DNA from: Bacilli bacterium
Lineage (GTDB): Bacteria; Bacillota_I; Bacilli_A; RFN20; CAG-826
Assembly (NCBI GenBank): GCA_024408075.1
Contig: JAKSVK010000006.1
Location: 1-62,580 of the forward strand
Length of the DNA: 62,580 bases
Direction of reading: 5' to 3'
Both the position numbers and the translations under genes were made by a program. Positions within the stretch are counted from its first letter, which is position 1; every line of letters begins with the position of its first letter. Below are positions 5,414 through 40,044 of this stretch, piece by piece. The notes under the pieces were generated by a model that saw only the letters and a program-made list of their open reading frames with translations, was not told where the DNA came from and made no database searches.

Positions 5414-7963
5414 TTAATATAACCTAATATTGAGTTCCTTTTCGTAGATTTCGCTTTCTTCAAGCTTAAATTTAAGTTTTAAGGTTTCACCAATTTTCAT
5501 TTCTCTAGTCTTATCAATATAGATAACTGTCTTTTGGCCAAATACTTCACCTACTGCTTTATAAAGTTTAACGTCACCATAGTTAACAAATGATGTGACT
5601 TTAAAGTCTACTCCATCAGGACTTTCAACGTATCCAGCGTGTGACATTGCCACTCTAAAGACTTTAGTAAAGACTTTATTTCCAAGTCCTTGAATAATCT
5701 TTTCAGTGATGAAATCAGGGATAATTTGATATGTTTCGTTGTATTTAAAGAAGAATAAGAGTTTAGCATGCAAGATATCGTCATTATATTTCTTTTCGAT
5801 ATCTTTTGCTTTTTGAGCATATTCTTTTTCAACAAAAGAAACTGGGTTAGCAGTTTTTGCTAAAAGTAAGTTATTTTGTTTAATCTTATCTTTAATAAAT
5901 GATTTAGTTTGTGAATGTTTTGCATTAACTGCATTTAAGTCAGTTTCTTTATCAAATTCTAAAGAATTGACTTTTCTTTCCATATCACTAGATTTCATTA
6001 AAGGTAGGTTTTCTTTAAATATTGAGAAAGATACTCTTCTTGCTCTACGAGATTCTGGATCTTTATTTTTCTCCATACACTGTTTATAGTCGGCGTATTC
6101 TTTCTCTTTCATCTCCTTATACTGTTGATTGACTTTAGCAATTTCAACTTTTCTAAGTTCAGCATGCTTTTTCTTAAGCATTGCTTTATTTTCATGATAT
6201 TCTTTAGTTTCTTTAGAAAGTTCTATTTTAAGTTCAGCATTTTCTTTATTAAGCTTTGCACTTAAATCAGCTACTTCGCCTTTATTACCGCTTTGTTTTT
6301 CTTTTGCTTTAGCAATTTCATCGGCTTTTTCTTTTTCGAAGTCTTCTCTAACTTTCTTATATTTTTCTTCAACTGCTGCAACACGTTCATCTTGGAGTTT
6401 CATAAGTTCATTATTTTGTGTTGCATCATAAGCTGTATGTAAATTAACAAATGTTGCTTCAACATCATCTCTAAATGGAAGAGGTGAAGCAATAACATTT
6501 TCTTTATCATCTTTAAATGTAGCTTGTGAATAATCGATTGATAAGTTTAGTTCATCACCTTTTTTCACTTGTTCGTCGACAAAAATATACATTTTCTTAT
6601 CATTAGCAGTAACTAATGCAATATTTTGTCCTCTTTGAACTTCAGTAGAAAGAACTTTAACTTTAATTTTTCCTTCCCCTACTTTAATTGCATTAAGTGG
6701 AATTGAAATAGTTCCATCTTTAACGTAATCAACATTAATTGCTTCTGGTTTAGGCTCTAATCCGAATAAATCCATCTTTTCGTTTTCCACATTAATTGAT
6801 AAGACGTTATGATCTGGAACTAAAGGAATAATAGTCATTTCAGTTTCAGCATCAAATAGATGGATATTTTCTACTTTAATCTTAGCTTTAATCACATCTC
6901 CTGGAACATGTCCAAGTTTTGAAGAAGCTTTAATAATAACTGAAGTCTTAGATTCATTTCCAAGTCCTTCAACTTCTTTTAAATCACCATAAATTAAGGT
7001 TTCGTTACCAAGTTCTTCAAAGTGAGAAATAACAACATCTACGACATTATCTCCGCTTACATCTTCTTCTGCGCTAATTTGTTCGCATCTGAAGCCTAAG
7101 ATAATGTCTTTATCTCCTTTAAGGAAACGTTTTTCACATTTAAGTACTTGATCAGGAGAAAGAACAAGTGGTTTTTGTTCACAGTCTTTCCAAGAAACAA
7201 GAACTTTATCTTTTTCTTCTTTTAAAGTCACATTAAAGAAATTCATTTGAGGAGTTCCAATAAATCCTGCAACGAATTTATTTACTGGGTGATCATATAA
7301 CGCTTGTGGAGAATCAATTTGTTGGACTCTTCCAAGTTTCATAACAACAACACGAGTACCAAGCGTCATAGCTTCGACTTGGTCGTGAGTAACATAAATA
7401 AATGTAGTTTTCAGTTGTTGATGGAGTTTTGAGATTTCGCTTCTCATTTGGCTTCTAAGTTTAGCATCAAGGTTACTTAAAGGTTCATCAAGAAGCATAA
7501 CTTTAGGATTTCTTAAAATTGCTCTTCCTAAAGAAACACGTTGTCTTTGTCCACCAGACATAGCTTTTGGCTTACGGTCAAGGTATTCAGTTAAACCAAG
7601 GACATTAGCAGCCCACATAACTTTTTTATGAATTTCTGTTCTTGGAACTTTTCTTAAAGTTAATCCAAAAGCCATATTTTCATAAACTGTCATATGAGGA
7701 TAAAGTGCATAGTTTTGGAAAACCATGGCGATATCTCTTTCTTTTGGAGGCATATCATTAACTAATGAATCACCAATATAAAGTTCACCAGAAGAAATAT
7801 CTTCTAGACCTGCAATCATTCTTAATGTAGTAGATTTACCACATCCAGATGGACCGACGAAAACGATAAATTCGCCATCTTTAATATCAATGTTAAAGTC
7901 ACTAACTGCTTTATGCCCGTTAGGATAAACCTTATAGATGTGTTCTAATTTAAGTGAAGCCAT
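5414..7963 (-). CDS. msmK: MsmK/MalK-type sugar ABC transporter ATPase with a large C-terminal extension
   Basis: 849 residues, against about 365-380 for the family. Residues 1-376 are a complete MsmK/UgpC ATPase: Walker A GPSGCGKST (37-45), Q-loop Gln83, signature SGGQ (136-139), Walker B VMLLDE (155-160), switch His193, and a TOBE domain ending in the usual HLFDAET. The further 470 residues contain a second beta-rich TOBE-like region (about 405-500), a highly charged predicted coiled coil (about 515-735), and a third beta-rich region (about 745-849, NYGDVKLYKAVGEVFGQKTV). The frame is uninterrupted. It has a good GGAGG site and sits next to the two permease genes, so it should energise their uptake of malto-oligosaccharides; MsmK-type ATPases often serve several importers. 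The role of the extension is unknown. Confidence 0.93.
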   Translation of the reverse strand: MASLKLEHIYKVYPNGHKAVSDFNIDIKDGEFIVFVGPSGCGKSTTLRMIAGLEDISSGELYIGDSLVNDMPPKERDIAMVFQNYALYPHMTVYENMAFGLTLRKVPRTEIHKKVMWAANVLGLTEYLDRKPKAMSGGQRQRVSLGRAILRNPKVMLLDEPLSNLDAKLRSQMRSEISKLHQQLKTTFIYVTHDQVEAMTLGTRVVVMKLGRVQQIDSPQALYDHPVNKFVAGFIGTPQMNFFNVTLKEEKDKVLVSWKDCEQKPLVLSPDQVLKCEKRFLKGDKDIILGFRCEQISAEEDVSGDNVVDVVISHFEELGNETLIYGDLKEVEGLGNESKTSVIIKASSKLGHVPGDVIKAKIKVENIHLFDAETEMTIIPLVPDHNVLSINVENEKMDLFGLEPKPEAINVDYVKDGTISIPLNAIKVGEGKIKVKVLSTEVQRGQNIALVTANDKKMYIFVDEQVKKGDELNLSIDYSQATFKDDKENVIASPLPFRDDVEATFVNLHTAYDATQNNELMKLQDERVAAVEEKYKKVREDFEKEKADEIAKAKEKQSGNKGEVADLSAKLNKENAELKIELSKETKEYHENKAMLKKKHAELRKVEIAKVNQQYKEMKEKEYADYKQCMEKNKDPESRRARRVSFSIFKENLPLMKSSDMERKVNSLEFDKETDLNAVNAKHSQTKSFIKDKIKQNNLLLAKTANPVSFVEKEYAQKAKDIEKKYNDDILHAKLLFFFKYNETYQIIPDFITEKIIQGLGNKVFTKVFRVAMSHAGYVESPDGVDFKVTSFVNYGDVKLYKAVGEVFGQKTVIYIDKTREMKIGETLKLKFKLEESEIYEKELNIRLY

Positions 7964-18952: not shown

Positions 18953-21550
18953 ATGCCAAAACTTACGATTATTGATGGTAACTCATTACTCTTTAGAGCT
19001 TATTTTGCCACCGCTTATCCAGGCGTGGAAATTATGAGAAATCAAAAAGGTGAACCAACCAATGCTATTTTTGCTTTCTCTAACATGATTAATAAAATTG
19101 TTTCTTCTTTGAAAGAAGGAGAATCACTTTTTGTTGCTTTTGATGCTGGAAAAAAGAATTTTAGACACGACAAACTTGAAACATACAAAGCAAATCGTAA
19201 ACCTGCTCCAGAAGATTTAGTAAAACAATTCCCAATGGCTAGAGAATTTCTTAAAGCATTTGGAATTTTTCAATTTGAAGAAGTTGGCTATGAAGGTGAT
19301 GATATCGCTGGAACTTTAGCTAAAAAAGCTGCTTCACAAGGATATAACGTCACAATTTATACAAGTGATAGAGATTTCCTCCAATTAGTTGATGAAAATA
19401 TTACAGTTAATTTAATTAAAAAGGGATTAAGTGATATTGCAGAAATGACTCCACAGTTAGTAGAAGAAACTTATCACATTAAACCAATCCAAATTATTGA
19501 TTATAAAGGATTAAGAGGAGACTCTAGTGATAACTTACCAGGAATTCCAGGAATAGGAGATGTCACTGCTGTTAAATTAATAAATAAATATGGCAGTTTT
19601 GATGAAATTATTGCTCATGTTGATGAAATTCCAGGAAAAGTTGGAGAAGAAATTAAAAATAATATTGAACTAGGAACTATTTCTAGAGATTTAGCAATTA
19701 TTGATATAAACACTCCAATAAATTTCCAATTAAGTGAAGTTGAATATAAAGGCTATTCATTTAAAGAAATCAGTGAATTCTGTCAAAGATATGGATTAAA
19801 ACAATTCATGAATAAAATTCCTGAAAAATGGAAAAAGAGCGATTCAAATCAATGCAATTTAGAAGTAGAAGTTGTATCGAATTTAAATAATATAGATTTA
19901 GGAAACGAAATAGGGATTGAAGTTGATTTATATGATAGAAATGATTACTTTAGAAGCGAAGTTTTTGGTATTGCTTTAAGTAACAAAAATAAGATTGTTT
20001 ACCTTAACATTGCCGATGCAAAAAAAGATCAAAAATTACTTTCAATTTTGGCTGATGAAAAAGTAGCAAAATATGCTTATGATTTTAAAGCAATCAAAGC
20101 TGCTCTTCACAAAGAGAATATTGAAGTAAATGGTCTAAAATTTGATATCTTAATTGCATCTTATTTACTTGATTCAACAATTAAAAACAATCCTCAAGCA
20201 GTCATGAATTTGTATGGTATAGACCTTAAAAGTTCTGATGAAGAAATTAGCTTATTATCAACAAATAATCCGGAAATTGCTGGGAAAATCGCATATTTTT
20301 CATTATTTACAAGTGATAAAATTTTAGCTGAATTAGAGAAGGTTAATGCTTTAAAACTTTTCAACGAACTCGAAATTCCACTTACTTCAACTTTAGCAGA
20401 TATGGAAATAGAAGGTTTCCCATTATCAAAAGATGACCTTACTAATTTCGGACAAGAATATAAAGAAAAATTAAAAAATCTAACCGACGAAATTTGTGCT
20501 TTGGCTGGCACTAAATTTAACATCTCTTCACCTAAACAAGTTGGCGATATTTTATTCAATAAATTAGGTTTGCCAGATTACGAAAAAGGCTCAACAAGTG
20601 TTGATGTTTTAAATAGCTTGCTTGGACAACATCCAATTATCGAAAAACTTTTAGATTATCGAAAATATTTTAAGCTCGTAACTACATATATTGATGGATT
20701 TATTCAACACATCTATCCTGATGGAAAAATACACACATCATTTAATCAAGCCGTGACTCAAACAGGAAGATTATCTTCATCTAATCCAAATTTACAAAAT
20801 ATTTCCATTAGAGATGAGGAAAGTAAAAACATTAGAAAATCTTTCTATTATGATGATGAAAATATTGAAATCCTTTCATTTGACTACTCACAAATAGAAT
20901 TAAGAATATTAGCTCATCTCTCTAATTGCCAAAAATTGATTGATGTATTCAAAAGTAATGAAGACATTCATGCAAGTACTGCTAAAAACGTATTTAAAGT
21001 TGATAAACCTAGCGATCTTCAAAGAAGAAAAGCGAAAGTTGTTAATTTTGGTATAGTGTATGGCATTTCTGATTGGGGTTTAGCAGAAGAGCTTGGGATA
21101 CCAGTTAAAGAAGCTAAAGAAATGATTGAAAATTTCTATCAAGCTTACCCTGAAGTTGCACTATTCTTTAAACAAATTGTTGATAATGGAATAAAAGATG
21201 GATTTGTTTCTACAATGTTAGGTAGAAGAAGATATTTAACTGGTTTCCATGATTCAAATTATCAAGTTAGAGAATTTGCAAAAAGAGCTGCAATGAACGC
21301 TCCAATTCAAGGAAGTGCTGCAGATTTAATTAAATTAGCGATGATAAGAATTGCTAAAGCAATAAAAGAAAATAATTACAAAAGTAAAATGGTTTTACAA
21401 ATTCATGACGAATTAATTTTTAAAGTATATAAAGATGAAAAAGAACAAATTAAAAATTTAGTTATGAATGAAATGAAACACGCAATGGAATTAAATGTCC
21501 CATTAGAAGTTGACGGAGGATTTGGCCGTACTTGGTACGACGCAAAATAG
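18953..21550 (+). CDS. polA: DNA polymerase I
   Basis: 865 residues. N-terminal 5' nuclease domain (LTIIDGNSLLFRAYFAT, EGDDIAGTLA, GLRGDSSDNLPGIPGIG), a middle 3'-5' exonuclease-like region lacking the usual DxE and so probably inactive as in Bacillus, and a C-terminal polymerase with motif A DYSQIELRILAH (Asp644), motif B RRKAKVVNFGIVYG and motif C IHDE (818-820). It fills gaps and removes RNA primers during replication and repair. GGAGGA lies inside the end of dnaE, so translation is coupled. The mutM-coaE fusion follows with a two-base gap. Confidence 0.97.
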   Translation: MPKLTIIDGNSLLFRAYFATAYPGVEIMRNQKGEPTNAIFAFSNMINKIVSSLKEGESLFVAFDAGKKNFRHDKLETYKANRKPAPEDLVKQFPMAREFLKAFGIFQFEEVGYEGDDIAGTLAKKAASQGYNVTIYTSDRDFLQLVDENITVNLIKKGLSDIAEMTPQLVEETYHIKPIQIIDYKGLRGDSSDNLPGIPGIGDVTAVKLINKYGSFDEIIAHVDEIPGKVGEEIKNNIELGTISRDLAIIDINTPINFQLSEVEYKGYSFKEISEFCQRYGLKQFMNKIPEKWKKSDSNQCNLEVEVVSNLNNIDLGNEIGIEVDLYDRNDYFRSEVFGIALSNKNKIVYLNIADAKKDQKLLSILADEKVAKYAYDFKAIKAALHKENIEVNGLKFDILIASYLLDSTIKNNPQAVMNLYGIDLKSSDEEISLLSTNNPEIAGKIAYFSLFTSDKILAELEKVNALKLFNELEIPLTSTLADMEIEGFPLSKDDLTNFGQEYKEKLKNLTDEICALAGTKFNISSPKQVGDILFNKLGLPDYEKGSTSVDVLNSLLGQHPIIEKLLDYRKYFKLVTTYIDGFIQHIYPDGKIHTSFNQAVTQTGRLSSSNPNLQNISIRDEESKNIRKSFYYDDENIEILSFDYSQIELRILAHLSNCQKLIDVFKSNEDIHASTAKNVFKVDKPSDLQRRKAKVVNFGIVYGISDWGLAEELGIPVKEAKEMIENFYQAYPEVALFFKQIVDNGIKDGFVSTMLGRRRYLTGFHDSNYQVREFAKRAAMNAPIQGSAADLIKLAMIRIAKAIKENNYKSKMVLQIHDELIFKVYKDEKEQIKNLVMNEMKHAMELNVPLEVDGGFGRTWYDAK

Positions 21551-21552
21551 TT

Positions 21553-22962
21553 ATGCCAGAATTACCTGAAGTTGAAACTGTTACTAAAATACTTAAACCA
21601 ATTGTTATTGGAAGAACAATTAATAAAATTGATGTTTTAAGAAAACAAACAATTATTGGTGATGCTGCTACTTTCGTTAAACAGTTAACAGGAGAAAAGT
21701 TTGTTGACATCACAAGAATTGGTAAATATATCATCTTTCATTTAACTAACGATAAAGTGATTATTTCCCATCTCAGAATGGAAGGAAAATTCTATAAATA
21801 TAATGAAAATGAAGAGAATTCATACTATTCAAGAGTAGTCTTCCATTTTGATAACAACGAAAAACTTTGTTATGACGATTCAAGATGCTTTGGTATCTTA
21901 ATTTATTCAAACGAAAAAGATTATAGAAATGAAAAAGAAATAGCTAAACTTGGACCAGAACCATTTGATGTTAAAGATGTAAAAAGAATGGTTTCAATAT
22001 GCAAAAATAAATCAATTCCTATTAAAGCTGCACTACTTGATCAATCAATTATGTGTGGAATTGGTAATATTTATGCCGATGAAATCCTTTTTGCTTGTGG
22101 CATTCATCCATTAACAAGCGCAAAAGAAATTGATGAACTTGGATGGAAAAATATTGTTAAAGCAGCACAAGTTATTTTAAATAAAGCAATCGAACTAGGT
22201 GGATCAACCATTAAAAGTTATCACCCAGGAAAAGATATTGATGGGAAGTTCCAAAATAATATTCAAGTTTATGGAAAAAGCGGAGAAGATTGCCCTATTT
22301 GTGGATCCACTTTAAGATTTATAAAAATAGGTGGACGAGGCACTACTTTCTGTCCTAAATGTCAGCTCAAAATGGGAGCTCCACTTAATGTCGCAATTAC
22401 AGGCAAAATTGCTTCAGGAAAATCACTTGCTTTGAACGAGTTTAAAAAAGCAAATTTTGCTGTACTTCAAGCCGATGAACTTGTTGCAAAACTTTATGAA
22501 AGAGAAGACGTTAGTAACATCATTGAAAAATCATTAAAAATTAAATTCAAAAATGGTTTAGTTGATAAGAAACAATTAGGTCAACATCTGCTCTTAAATC
22601 CACAAGATAAAAGAAAACTTGAAAGGATCGTTCACCCACTAGTTAGAAAACAAATTGAGTTATTCTTAAAAACAAACAAATCACCTATTCGTGTTGTGGA
22701 AATTCCACTATTATTTGAAAGCGGACTTGATGAACTTTTTGATACCATAATTGTTTTAAATATTAACGAAAATCAACAAAAAAACCTGCTTTTTGCTAGG
22801 GAAAAAGAAAAAGCCTTACTTTTAAGTGAGATCAATAAATCTAATAAAATTGATCAAAATAAAGGCAAGGCAACTTATCTAATTGATAACAATTCCACTA
22901 AGGAAAATTTTATATCAGAGATTAAAAATATTATTCGTAAATTGAAACAGAGCCTAAATTAA
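21553..22962 (+). CDS. mutM-coaE: Fusion protein: formamidopyrimidine-DNA glycosylase (MutM) + dephospho-CoA kinase (CoaE)
   Basis: 469 residues in one uninterrupted frame. Residues 1-273 are a full Fpg/MutM: N-terminal catalytic PELPEVET (Pro2, Glu3), hairpin lysine in HLRMEGKF, and a C-terminal four-cysteine zinc finger (CPICG ... FCPKCQ). Residues 274-469 are a full-length CoaE: P-loop GKIASGKS, ADELVAKLYE, HPLVRKQ and EIPLLFESGLDE. MutM excises 8-oxoguanine and formamidopyrimidines; CoaE performs the last step of coenzyme A synthesis. In B. subtilis these are neighbouring separate genes after polA. An in-frame ATG at 22372 marks the joint but has no ribosome site, so separate CoaE translation is not evident. 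The start at 21553 is fixed by the need for Pro2. The end overlaps the convergent dnaI by 32 bases. Confidence 0.93.
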   Translation: MPELPEVETVTKILKPIVIGRTINKIDVLRKQTIIGDAATFVKQLTGEKFVDITRIGKYIIFHLTNDKVIISHLRMEGKFYKYNENEENSYYSRVVFHFDNNEKLCYDDSRCFGILIYSNEKDYRNEKEIAKLGPEPFDVKDVKRMVSICKNKSIPIKAALLDQSIMCGIGNIYADEILFACGIHPLTSAKEIDELGWKNIVKAAQVILNKAIELGGSTIKSYHPGKDIDGKFQNNIQVYGKSGEDCPICGSTLRFIKIGGRGTTFCPKCQLKMGAPLNVAITGKIASGKSLALNEFKKANFAVLQADELVAKLYEREDVSNIIEKSLKIKFKNGLVDKKQLGQHLLLNPQDKRKLERIVHPLVRKQIELFLKTNKSPIRVVEIPLLFESGLDELFDTIIVLNINENQQKNLLFAREKEKALLLSEINKSNKIDQNKGKATYLIDNNSTKENFISEIKNIIRKLKQSLN

Positions 22963-23815
22963 TTTCATTACCAAAAGTCTTTTTCATAATACGTTTAATT
23001 TGTTCTACTTTTGGTTTGCTCGCTTGGTTAGTTTGATACATTAAACAGATATCATCTATTGAGAAATCTGATGTGATTATTGTAAACAAATGAGCCTTAC
23101 TTCTAGCATTGATAATTGGGAACAAAATTGTCTCTCTAACATAGTCACTTTTATATTCATTTCCAAGGTCATCAAGTACTAAAACCGGGACCTTTAAATA
23201 TTTATCAATTAAAGAAGTAAATGCTTCATCTTTTTTGCTTCCTAATTCTTTAAATTTTGAAGGTACATCAATAAAAGCAATTGGACCTTTTTCATCTCGA
23301 GCAATTTCTAGCGCAATATTTGCTGCAAGATAGCTTCTTCCAGTACCTGCTTCTCCAACAATGTAAAGAGATTCTCCTTCATTATTTTTAAAGAAGTTTT
23401 GATATTTTTTAATTGCTTCCGCTCTTGGTGCAGAATTATCAATCTTTTTAAGTGTTCCACTCATCCATTCTTCAGGAAAATCGCGAATCAAAAATTGTTT
23501 TTTAAATTTGACTAATTCTAAATATTTTTTACATGGAACAACTTGTCTTTCAACTACACCGTCGACATAAACGATTTTAGTGCAGAGTCTTGGAGTGTCT
23601 TTATCGCATTTATCTACTCCTGGACAATGACGACAAAAATTCAAATCTGAAACAAAGTCATTAATTTTTACTATTTGTTTATCAACGATCTCTTCAGGAA
23701 TATTTAGACTATTTATGTATTTAACTGCTGCAGGGCAAGCTAAATAGTCAGCTTTCATCTTCTTAAGAACTTTATCTTCATCCTTAAAACGGGAGTTCAC
23801 TGTCAGTCTTTCCAT
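22931..23815 (-). CDS. dnaI: Primosomal helicase loader DnaI
   Basis: 294 residues. The N-terminal domain carries a cysteine cluster (CRHCPGVDKC, 61-70, and Cys78) as in the zinc-binding region of DnaI. The C-terminal AAA+ domain has Walker A GEAGTGRS (154-161), where the essential lysine is replaced by Arg160, and Walker B VLVLDDLG. DnaI loads the replicative helicase during initiation and restart. The ATG at 23815 is chosen because AAGGGG lies 9 bases before it; the ATG at 23824 touches the ribosome site. It overlaps the dnaB end by 32 bases, the standard dnaB-dnaI operon. Confidence 0.92.
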   Translation of the reverse strand: MERLTVNSRFKDEDKVLKKMKADYLACPAAVKYINSLNIPEEIVDKQIVKINDFVSDLNFCRHCPGVDKCDKDTPRLCTKIVYVDGVVERQVVPCKKYLELVKFKKQFLIRDFPEEWMSGTLKKIDNSAPRAEAIKKYQNFFKNNEGESLYIVGEAGTGRSYLAANIALEIARDEKGPIAFIDVPSKFKELGSKKDEAFTSLIDKYLKVPVLVLDDLGNEYKSDYVRETILFPIINARSKAHLFTIITSDFSIDDICLMYQTNQASKPKVEQIKRIMKKTFGNEINLGSVSIYE

Positions 23816-25076
23816 TGTCGTCATCCCCTTTCTTTTCTTCAAATAAAGAATTCCATTCTTCTTCATTTATTTTACCATTATTTTTATTTTCGCTCATAGT
23901 TGCTTTAACTTTTTTAGATGTCTTCTTAGTTTTGCTTTCAATTACTGAATTGCAATAATTCATAGCATCAATTGTTGTATTAATGTTTTCACGATTAAAT
24001 GATGCTGCAATTTTTTCAGCATAACCTCTAGATAAAATGTTTTTGTTCATTGATAAAACAAAATCAATCAAAACATTAATAACACCATTATTTAAGCAAT
24101 AATCTTTACTTAGCATATCAATTATTTTTAAATCACTCGTTGCAGGTCTGGTTCCATTTTGAAGAAGACTTAAAACATCTTTTGGTGATGTCTTTTCAAA
24201 CAAATTGATCTTATTTGCAAGCAAAGTATCACTTTTAACAGTAGAAGATTTGCCTTTTTTATGATGAGAAACAAGTGAATAATTAGTTTCTTTCATAAAT
24301 TGATCACTTAAAAGCTTAAGATCAATTCTGCTGCCTTTATCTTTTTCTCCATCAAAACAATTAATAACAAAATATGCAGCAGTTTCTTCACTTGTTCCAT
24401 ATAAAGTAGCAAGTCTTTCAACTTCTTTAATCTCTTTTTTAGTTATTTGATTTTGAGTTATGGTTGAAATTTTACTAAGTTCTAAAAAGAACTGATCATA
24501 ATTAAATGCTGTTTTAATCGCACGTTTATTTCTTCCTACACTATTATTTGAGCTACTTGTTGCAGCTTTTAAAAATGATGGTTCGTTTATATCAAATTGG
24601 AATGCATCATTAAATGAGGAGGAAATATCTTCTCCATCAACTTGATTTGAACTATATTCATAAACTTTTTTAAATTTTTCAGCATCTTCTTCTCCAAGAG
24701 CTTTGATTAGCATTCCAAAAAGTAATGCATCACCAAAGAAGTCTTTCGGAGTTGAAGGAGCATATATAGAATAATGATATATATTAGTGTTATTTACTTT
24801 TTCGAGTTTAGTTTTAAGAAGTCCAACTCCTTCAAGAAACTTTCTTGCCTCAACAAAACTTCCTGCTGGCATTTTCATTCTTGATAAAAGTTGTTCGTGA
24901 GTTGAAAAAGCTAATACATTTTGATTTCTAGACTCACTCCAGAGAGTAAAATACACCGCTAAAGATGTATAACCAATGATTGGTTGGTACAAATTTGTTA
25001 GTGTATCTCTATCATAATCTGCAAGAAGAGAATGGGCTCTAACATCAAACATATCGTTATAAGATAAGACAACCAT
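23784..25076 (-). CDS. dnaB: Replication initiation/membrane attachment protein DnaB (DnaB/DnaD family)
   Basis: 430 residues, close to the Bacillus protein (~470). The N-terminal winged-helix region (TLTNLYQPIIGYTSLAVYFT) and the central DnaB/DnaD-type helical domains (KKEIKEVERLATLYGTSEE) match the Firmicute co-loader family, which is not the DnaB helicase of E. coli. It works with DnaD and DnaI to place helicase at oriC. GGAGGGAAT precedes the ATG. A promoter lies at 25098-25126 with a DnaA box just upstream of its -35, suggesting control by DnaA. Confidence 0.92.
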   Translation of the reverse strand: MVVLSYNDMFDVRAHSLLADYDRDTLTNLYQPIIGYTSLAVYFTLWSESRNQNVLAFSTHEQLLSRMKMPAGSFVEARKFLEGVGLLKTKLEKVNNTNIYHYSIYAPSTPKDFFGDALLFGMLIKALGEEDAEKFKKVYEYSSNQVDGEDISSSFNDAFQFDINEPSFLKAATSSSNNSVGRNKRAIKTAFNYDQFFLELSKISTITQNQITKKEIKEVERLATLYGTSEETAAYFVINCFDGEKDKGSRIDLKLLSDQFMKETNYSLVSHHKKGKSSTVKSDTLLANKINLFEKTSPKDVLSLLQNGTRPATSDLKIIDMLSKDYCLNNGVINVLIDFVLSMNKNILSRGYAEKIAASFNRENINTTIDAMNYCNSVIESKTKKTSKKVKATMSENKNNGKINEEEWNSLFEEKKGDDDNGKTDSELPF

Positions 25077-39306: not shown

Positions 39307-40044
39307 TCATTTTCTCCTTTTAGAAATAACTGATAAACCGTTCAATGTAAGATATTCGATTTCTTCATATTCGAAATCTAAATATTGTTTTATAAAATTG
39401 GCGTATCCACCAGTAAGAATCTTTTTACATTTAATTCCTAACTCATTTTCGAATCTTCTAACTAAACCATTAATTGCATCGCCATGAGAATAAATAACTG
39501 ATGCAATAACAACATCATTAGTGTGTTTACATTCTGTTAATTTTTTAGGTTTAGTAAGACTATATCTATCTAATAACGCAGTTGAATTGCTTAAAACAGA
39601 TAAAGATGATTCTAGTCCAGGAATTATTGCGCAATACGAAAATTGGTTGTTCTTATTTAAATAAAGCACTTTGCTTGCTGTGCCTAAATCAATAATTAAA
39701 GTATCTTTATTTTCTAAAGATGCACTAGCAACCAAATCACAAACTAAGTCACTTCCAAGTTCTTCAGGGTTTTCAATATTAATGTTCACTAAGTCTTGCG
39801 AAGAATGATCCACAAAACAAACTTTAATAGACTTTTCGTTAAAATAATCCTTAAGAATTTGTGAAACAGAAGGAACTACCGAAGAAACTAAAACTTCAGA
39901 AATTTTGTTGTCTTTTAAGTAATTCTCTAAGCTAGATGATAAGTCATTTTTGCTAATTTTTTTGCTCAATATAAAAGCAACTTTATTTAAAGACTCATCA
40001 AAAATTTTGGTTAATGTATTGCCAACGTCAATTAATAAATTCAT
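39307..40044 (-). CDS. coaX: Type III pantothenate kinase
   Basis: 245 residues. ASKHA-fold kinase with N-terminal phosphate loop DVGNT (6-10), catalytic-Asp region NPEELGSDLV (the family usually has GADR, so the arginine is a leucine here), and DLGTASKV. It performs the first step of CoA synthesis from pantothenate; the last step is in the MutM-CoaE fusion at 21553-22962. It lies one base after leuS. The altered GADR motif is a mild oddity. Confidence 0.85.
   Translation of the reverse strand: MNLLIDVGNTLTKIFDESLNKVAFILSKKISKNDLSSSLENYLKDNKISEVLVSSVVPSVSQILKDYFNEKSIKVCFVDHSSQDLVNINIENPEELGSDLVCDLVASASLENKDTLIIDLGTASKVLYLNKNNQFSYCAIIPGLESSLSVLSNSTALLDRYSLTKPKKLTECKHTNDVVIASVIYSHGDAINGLVRRFENELGIKCKKILTGGYANFIKQYLDFEYEEIEYLTLNGLSVISKRRK

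Follow-up and report, generated by a model that had tools for sequence, protein, structure and literature searches.

What does it mean that a DNA repair enzyme and an enzyme of coenzyme A (CoA) synthesis are encoded by one gene: is the product a single protein, are both of its parts at work, and does the link between them serve a purpose? The window analysed here, that is, the whole stretch of 62,580 nucleotides taken from a draft genome of 52 contigs (94.5% complete), contains at positions 21553-22962 of the forward strand a single unbroken reading frame, running from ATG to TAA, that encodes a protein of 469 amino acids. The first-pass annotation had described this gene as a genuine mutM-coaE fusion with two full-length halves, a description that is borne out by the open frame, by domain matches and by conservation of the gene in the genus. 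All four Pfam matches to the 469-aa protein exceed the cut-off, namely Fapy_DNA_glyco (PF01149, residues 1-114), H2TH (PF06831, 133-222), zf-FPG_IleRS (PF06827, 244-271) and CoaE (PF01121, 280-449), as do the NCBIfam matches to fpg (280 bits) and dephospho-CoA kinase (92 bits). Membership of the second half in the CoaE family is indicated by PF01121 (87 bits vs a cut-off of 27 bits; 87-90 bits for the domain, located at 22390-22899, +) and by TIGR00152 (92 bits vs a cut-off of 65.6 bits).

The MutM half is complete and spans residues 1-271, with the N-terminal catalytic domain (21553-21894), the H2TH DNA-binding domain (21949-22218) and, as its last element, the zinc finger (22282-22365), all on the forward strand. 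It shows the MPELPE start with the Pro2-Glu3 nucleophile and acid, the H2TH domain with Asn and the catalytic Lys, and the four-Cys zinc finger; P2, E3, K58, N172 and R262 as well as the cysteines 247, 250, 267 and 270 are invariant in alignment A1. The joint, 12 residues long (LKMGAPLNVAIT; 22366-22401, +), begins right behind the last zinc ligands (CPKCQ), exactly where it had first been placed, and leads to the P-loop GKIASGKS (22402-22425, +); its final part is the first strand of a complete CoaE-type kinase. In this kinase, the P-loop residues G284, G289, K290 and S291 and the Asp general base D308 (22474-22476, +) are all present. In the predicted structure, the MutM half matches 1r2y with a TM-score of 0.93, and for the CoaE half, modelled with a pLDDT of 91, the top 30 PDB hits are all enzymes of the CoaE type. 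A search of PHROGs yielded only one family, of unknown function, which covers the MutM half.

No second mutM and no other convincing coaE were found anywhere in the contigs of the source genome; a candidate second coaE on contig C24, a match of 22.5 bits below the cut-off, falls in a gene for a putative CBS-domain membrane protein and was rejected as a kinase. With no separate copy of either gene in the genome, the two halves are therefore made one-to-one, as the initial reading had proposed. The product would be a single chain in which two enzymes fold independently: MutM/Fpg, a DNA glycosylase for 8-oxoguanine and FaPy that is also an AP lyase, and behind it the dephospho-CoA kinase CoaE. 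Upstream, polA (18953-21550, +) ends 2 nt ahead of the ATG of the fused gene, and downstream, the last 32 nt of the fused gene are overlapped by a convergent gene for a DnaI-like protein (IstB-type ATPase; 22931-23866, -), which together with a DnaB_2-domain gene forms a block of replication genes at 22931-25076 (-). Elsewhere in the window, the product of the gene at 5414-7963 (-), 849 aa long, has a MalK-type ABC ATPase within residues 1-300 and no Pfam match beyond them; it is possibly a transporter fusion.

The catalytic motifs had also been called intact, and this holds for MutM, for the CoaE P-loop and for Asp308, but not for the RI..Q motif of the CoaE LID or for the first Asp of the DXD motif. 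Asp308 corresponds to Asp32 of the Mycobacterium tuberculosis CoaE, the general base (PMC2765170), and this residue is identical in all aligned CoaEs, as is, with the exception of one broken gene, the P-loop Lys. The LID region (22777-22890, +) has diverged. At the sites aligned with Arg140 and Gln144 of M. tuberculosis, which were placed on RI..Q by their spacing of four and not by structure alignment, the window protein has Glu and Ser; docking puts both mycobacterial residues in contact with phosphate (PMC2765170). Outside the order, the Gln of RI..Q is found in all 60 separate CoaEs and in 23 of the 24 fused ones; inside the order, it is found in none of 45 fused and two of four separate CoaEs; one further LID Arg is kept in just 19 of the 45. 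The first Asp of DXD is Q306 in the window and mostly Ser within the order. In place of RI..Q, the order has a conserved LID pattern of its own, LN..N..D.N. This divergence does not appear to result from the fusion, because part of it is seen in the separate CoaEs of two families (f6 and f8; family codes are working labels, not taxon names) and it is absent from most fusions outside the order. The LID and DXD residues are conserved in related CoaEs but may not be essential in this lineage, and the designation 'CoaE-type kinase' is used here.

The loss of the LID motif makes the kinase activity less than certain, and it is conceivable, if rather unlikely, that in members of this order the CoaE half has ceased to act as an ordinary dephospho-CoA kinase and now accepts a different substrate, is only weakly active or plays a structural part, next to a fully active MutM. 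The near-complete disappearance of the RI..Q Gln, the change of the first DXD Asp and the patchy retention of the LID Arg all point in this direction, as does the greater divergence of the CoaE halves compared with the MutM halves (mean distance 0.71 vs 0.56). Against this stand the invariant P-loop Lys and general base, the predicted CoaE fold, and the new conserved LID pattern, which suggests compensation. Nei-Gojobori dN/dS values between the window and the genus, rough because dS is near saturation, are 0.13-0.28 for MutM and 0.23-0.39 for CoaE with the joint, and point to purifying selection on both halves. MutM and CoaE distances are correlated (r 0.66; none of 2000 permutations as high), as expected from shared history. 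The genomic context also argues for a working kinase: coaD is retained (177 bits), no other coaE is present in the genome, and the window encodes type III pantothenate kinase (coaX; 39307-40044, -), the first step of the CoA pathway, so that with coaD and coaX in place CoaE has a step to perform. The pathway is nevertheless incomplete as known, its middle being unexplained, since no coaBC above the cut-off was found in 17 genomes of the order, in a search that was positive in 14 of 14 control genomes. On balance, we think that the CoaE half is active with a rebuilt LID.

The fused architecture, when searched across genomes, proves to be widespread. An unbroken fused gene is found in 16 of the 18 other genomes of the genus, at 57-63% identity; of the two remaining genomes, one is 72% complete and has no match, and the other has a fragment of 50 residues. 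Across the class, 296 genomes were sampled and 284 of them have a match; the genes are fused in at least 64 (56 full-length matches without any stop and eight with a stop outside the joint once the frame is read). In the family of the window (f1), all 30 matching genomes have the fused gene, and the fusion is real and fixed in this family. Fused genes are also found in six of six genomes of f3, in 11 of f12, in six of f16, in a few of f19, f25, f26, f27 and f28, and among members of f2 and f5. Two families with small genomes and TGA inside frames as in mycoplasmas (f11 and f22) have MutM alone covered among the matches listed. Among the carriers of the fused gene are an isolate, Acholeplasma equifetale ATCC 29724, and, of the metagenome-derived genomes, Candidatus Onthovivens merdipullorum, and the gene is present on two single-contig chromosomes (G272 C1, 1.06 Mb, locus L136; G132 C1, 1.50 Mb, locus L150).

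Most of the class keeps mutM and coaE apart. Three relatives, G019 (66% complete), G027 and G039 (loci L190, L191 and L192), carry a MutM that stops at the zinc finger and no CoaE, so the halves are separable and MutM can be retained; in these three genomes, coaD is not above the cut-off. At L192, the lone mutM is flanked by polA and a putative DnaB-like gene. Apparent losses of the fusion in four other genomes are read as assembly gaps rather than losses, because full-length dnaE, polA, mutM and coaE are all missing from three of them (G157, G205 and G212) and the contig stops inside polA in the fourth (G020). Another kind of CoaE fusion was encountered at L107 (3813-5099, +), where a CoaE with about 240 unassigned N-terminal residues lies downstream of a separate mutM.

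How the two genes came together can be gleaned from their arrangement in relatives. In most sister families with separate genes, the CoaE match starts 6-24 nt past the mutM stop, often in the same frame, a share that is inflated by the way the loci were picked. The f8 loci L029 and L031 have two same-frame genes divided by a single TAA. The fused L152 has the longest joint (17 residues, within a range of 8-17 across lineages), in which an ATG with AAGGAG upstream is still present and looks like a fossil of the coaE start. The loss of the stop codon between abutting genes is the simplest reading of this series and the likely route of fusion, and the earlier view that the fusion is a simple derivation from adjacent genes thus gains support. 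The statement that the genes are neighbours in Bacillus was loose: they are 760-790 nt apart in Bacillaceae-type loci (L081, L090, L094, L103, L109 and L111) and abut in Listeria, Streptococcus and lactobacilli.

In a tree of 145 MutM halves, f1, f3 and f5 cluster (44 rows, SH-aLRT 99), and all members of this clade are fused except for one broken gene, L058 (3420-4050), which has an intact MutM and a coaE half that is frameshifted and lacks the P-loop; it is regarded as decay or an assembly error, not as a working split. The MutM tree, a quick one whose counts do not tell fusion from splitting, requires 15 changes between the fused and separate states, or 13 if loci with no nearby coaE are omitted, 12 with branches below 80 collapsed and seven with branches below 95 collapsed. 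Both states occur within single families: in f19, L152 is fused and L175 and L179 are separate; in f28, L148 is fused and L168 separate; and in f27, L156, L158 and L159 are fused and L178 separate. The best explanation overall, and one that is probably correct, is a two-enzyme polypeptide that arose by stop loss and in which the link is neutral or almost neutral. Between the abutting genes, the stop codon and the start region would have been lost in an ancestor of the window's family and, separately, in other families; each half would retain its old job under its own selection, and the tie would enforce equal synthesis with no need for a shared substrate or shared regulation. We infer that both activities are alive under such an arrangement.

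Such repeated fusion could, however, mean that the link is selected, and the tether might serve a single purpose, for instance by tuning CoA supply with the repair of oxidised guanine, or by cross-regulation. CoA is one of the main low-molecular-weight thiols in many Bacillota. The state changes on the tree, numbering at least 7-15, and the fixation of the fused form in the window's family are consistent with such coupling, as is the rise of CoaE in Bacillus subtilis lacking the GO system (PMC10968225), which could also be a polar effect because mutM is upstream of coaE. A further point in favor is that the same gene pair may yield a frameshifted fusion product besides coupled translation (PMC3711429). 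No pathway or substrate shared by MutM and CoaE is known, and their pathways differ; yet the fused state recurs. Stop loss, however, easily fuses abutting genes with no benefit, the class majority keeps the genes apart, three relatives have MutM with no CoaE, and a joint length varying from 8 to 17 residues between lineages implies no fixed geometry. Given the repeated fusion of abutting genes and the MutM-only relatives, a functionless link fits at least as well, and we consider functional coupling to be unlikely. The more specific version, in which 8-oxoG repair is functionally tied to the last step of CoA synthesis and the CoaE half with its rebuilt LID is altered or regulated by MutM in this order, is quite doubtful; if true, it would be an unrecognised connection of DNA oxidation damage to CoA supply.

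All of this presupposes a single polypeptide, and at the level of sequence, there is no stop and no usable second start at the joint. That two products are made, whether translation also starts internally at 22372 or the protein is cut at the joint, appears very improbable. There is an in-frame ATG at 22372-22374 (+), which had been put forward as a possible internal start, and L152 shows that a start with a ribosome site can be retained. A Shine-Dalgarno-like sequence was looked for upstream of 22372 and is absent; every other genus member lacks an ATG at this position (L011 has GTG), and internal initiation there is accordingly rated unlikely from the sequence. When 69 distinct fusions are compared, the stretch from the zinc finger to the P-loop lacks all three start codons (ATG, GTG and TTG) in 54 and includes an ATG in six. 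A Shine-Dalgarno-like sequence precedes a start at the joint in L152 alone; the same test detects one ahead of 38 of 65 mutM starts. A stop or frameshift missed at the joint, conceivable in a genome drafted in 52 contigs, is refuted by 16 further genomes from the genus in which the same joint is unbroken and by the fused genes on single-contig chromosomes and in the Acholeplasma isolate.

The two halves compare closely with known enzymes. The MutM half resembles the MutM/Fpg proteins of Lactococcus lactis (1pji) and Geobacillus (1r2y) in length, in its three domains and in its catalytic and zinc residues, and the window protein differs from these by the second enzyme at its C-terminus. With the CoaEs of Thermus thermophilus (1uf9) and Escherichia coli (1t3h), it shares the P-loop, the Asp general base, the PLLFE motif and the fold; it differs by the N-terminal MutM and, across the order, by the lack of RI..Q and of the first DXD Asp. 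CoaE is likewise part of a two-part protein in the mycobacterial CoaE-UPF0157 (NF002879; 6n39) and in mammalian CoA synthase (2f6r). Its partner is UPF0157 in mycobacteria and the preceding CoA enzyme in mammalian CoA synthase, whereas here the partner is a DNA glycosylase located N-terminal to CoaE.

The closest precedent is a cluster named 'DNA glycosylase / Dephospho-CoA kinase' in the 2013 GeneTack frameshift survey (PMC3711429), for which constructs of the gene pair in E. coli led to the statement that frameshifting and translational coupling 'may occur' both. As here, the same two genes are linked in translation in that cluster, but there they overlap in different frames, whereas in the window they form one frame, and the main text of the survey does not mention a permanently fused gene. 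This cluster apart, no described MutM-CoaE fusion was found in the open-licence literature, and protein databases may list the architecture automatically. This fusion of operon neighbours is unusual both in recurring and in joining enzymes with no common pathway.

Repeated in many lineages, the stages range from neighbouring genes that are still separate, by way of pairs divided by one stop codon, to fusions that have no second start. This natural gradation makes it possible to ask whether adjacent genes fuse on account of joint work or simply because they lie end to end. It also serves as a caution that a gene fusion need not imply a shared pathway. The order-wide change of a CoaE motif that is kept nearly everywhere else is a second oddity of these bacteria. 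Should both halves be active, an enzyme that is normally essential would be tied to a repair enzyme that is dispensable in many bacteria, and the loss of mutM would be constrained.
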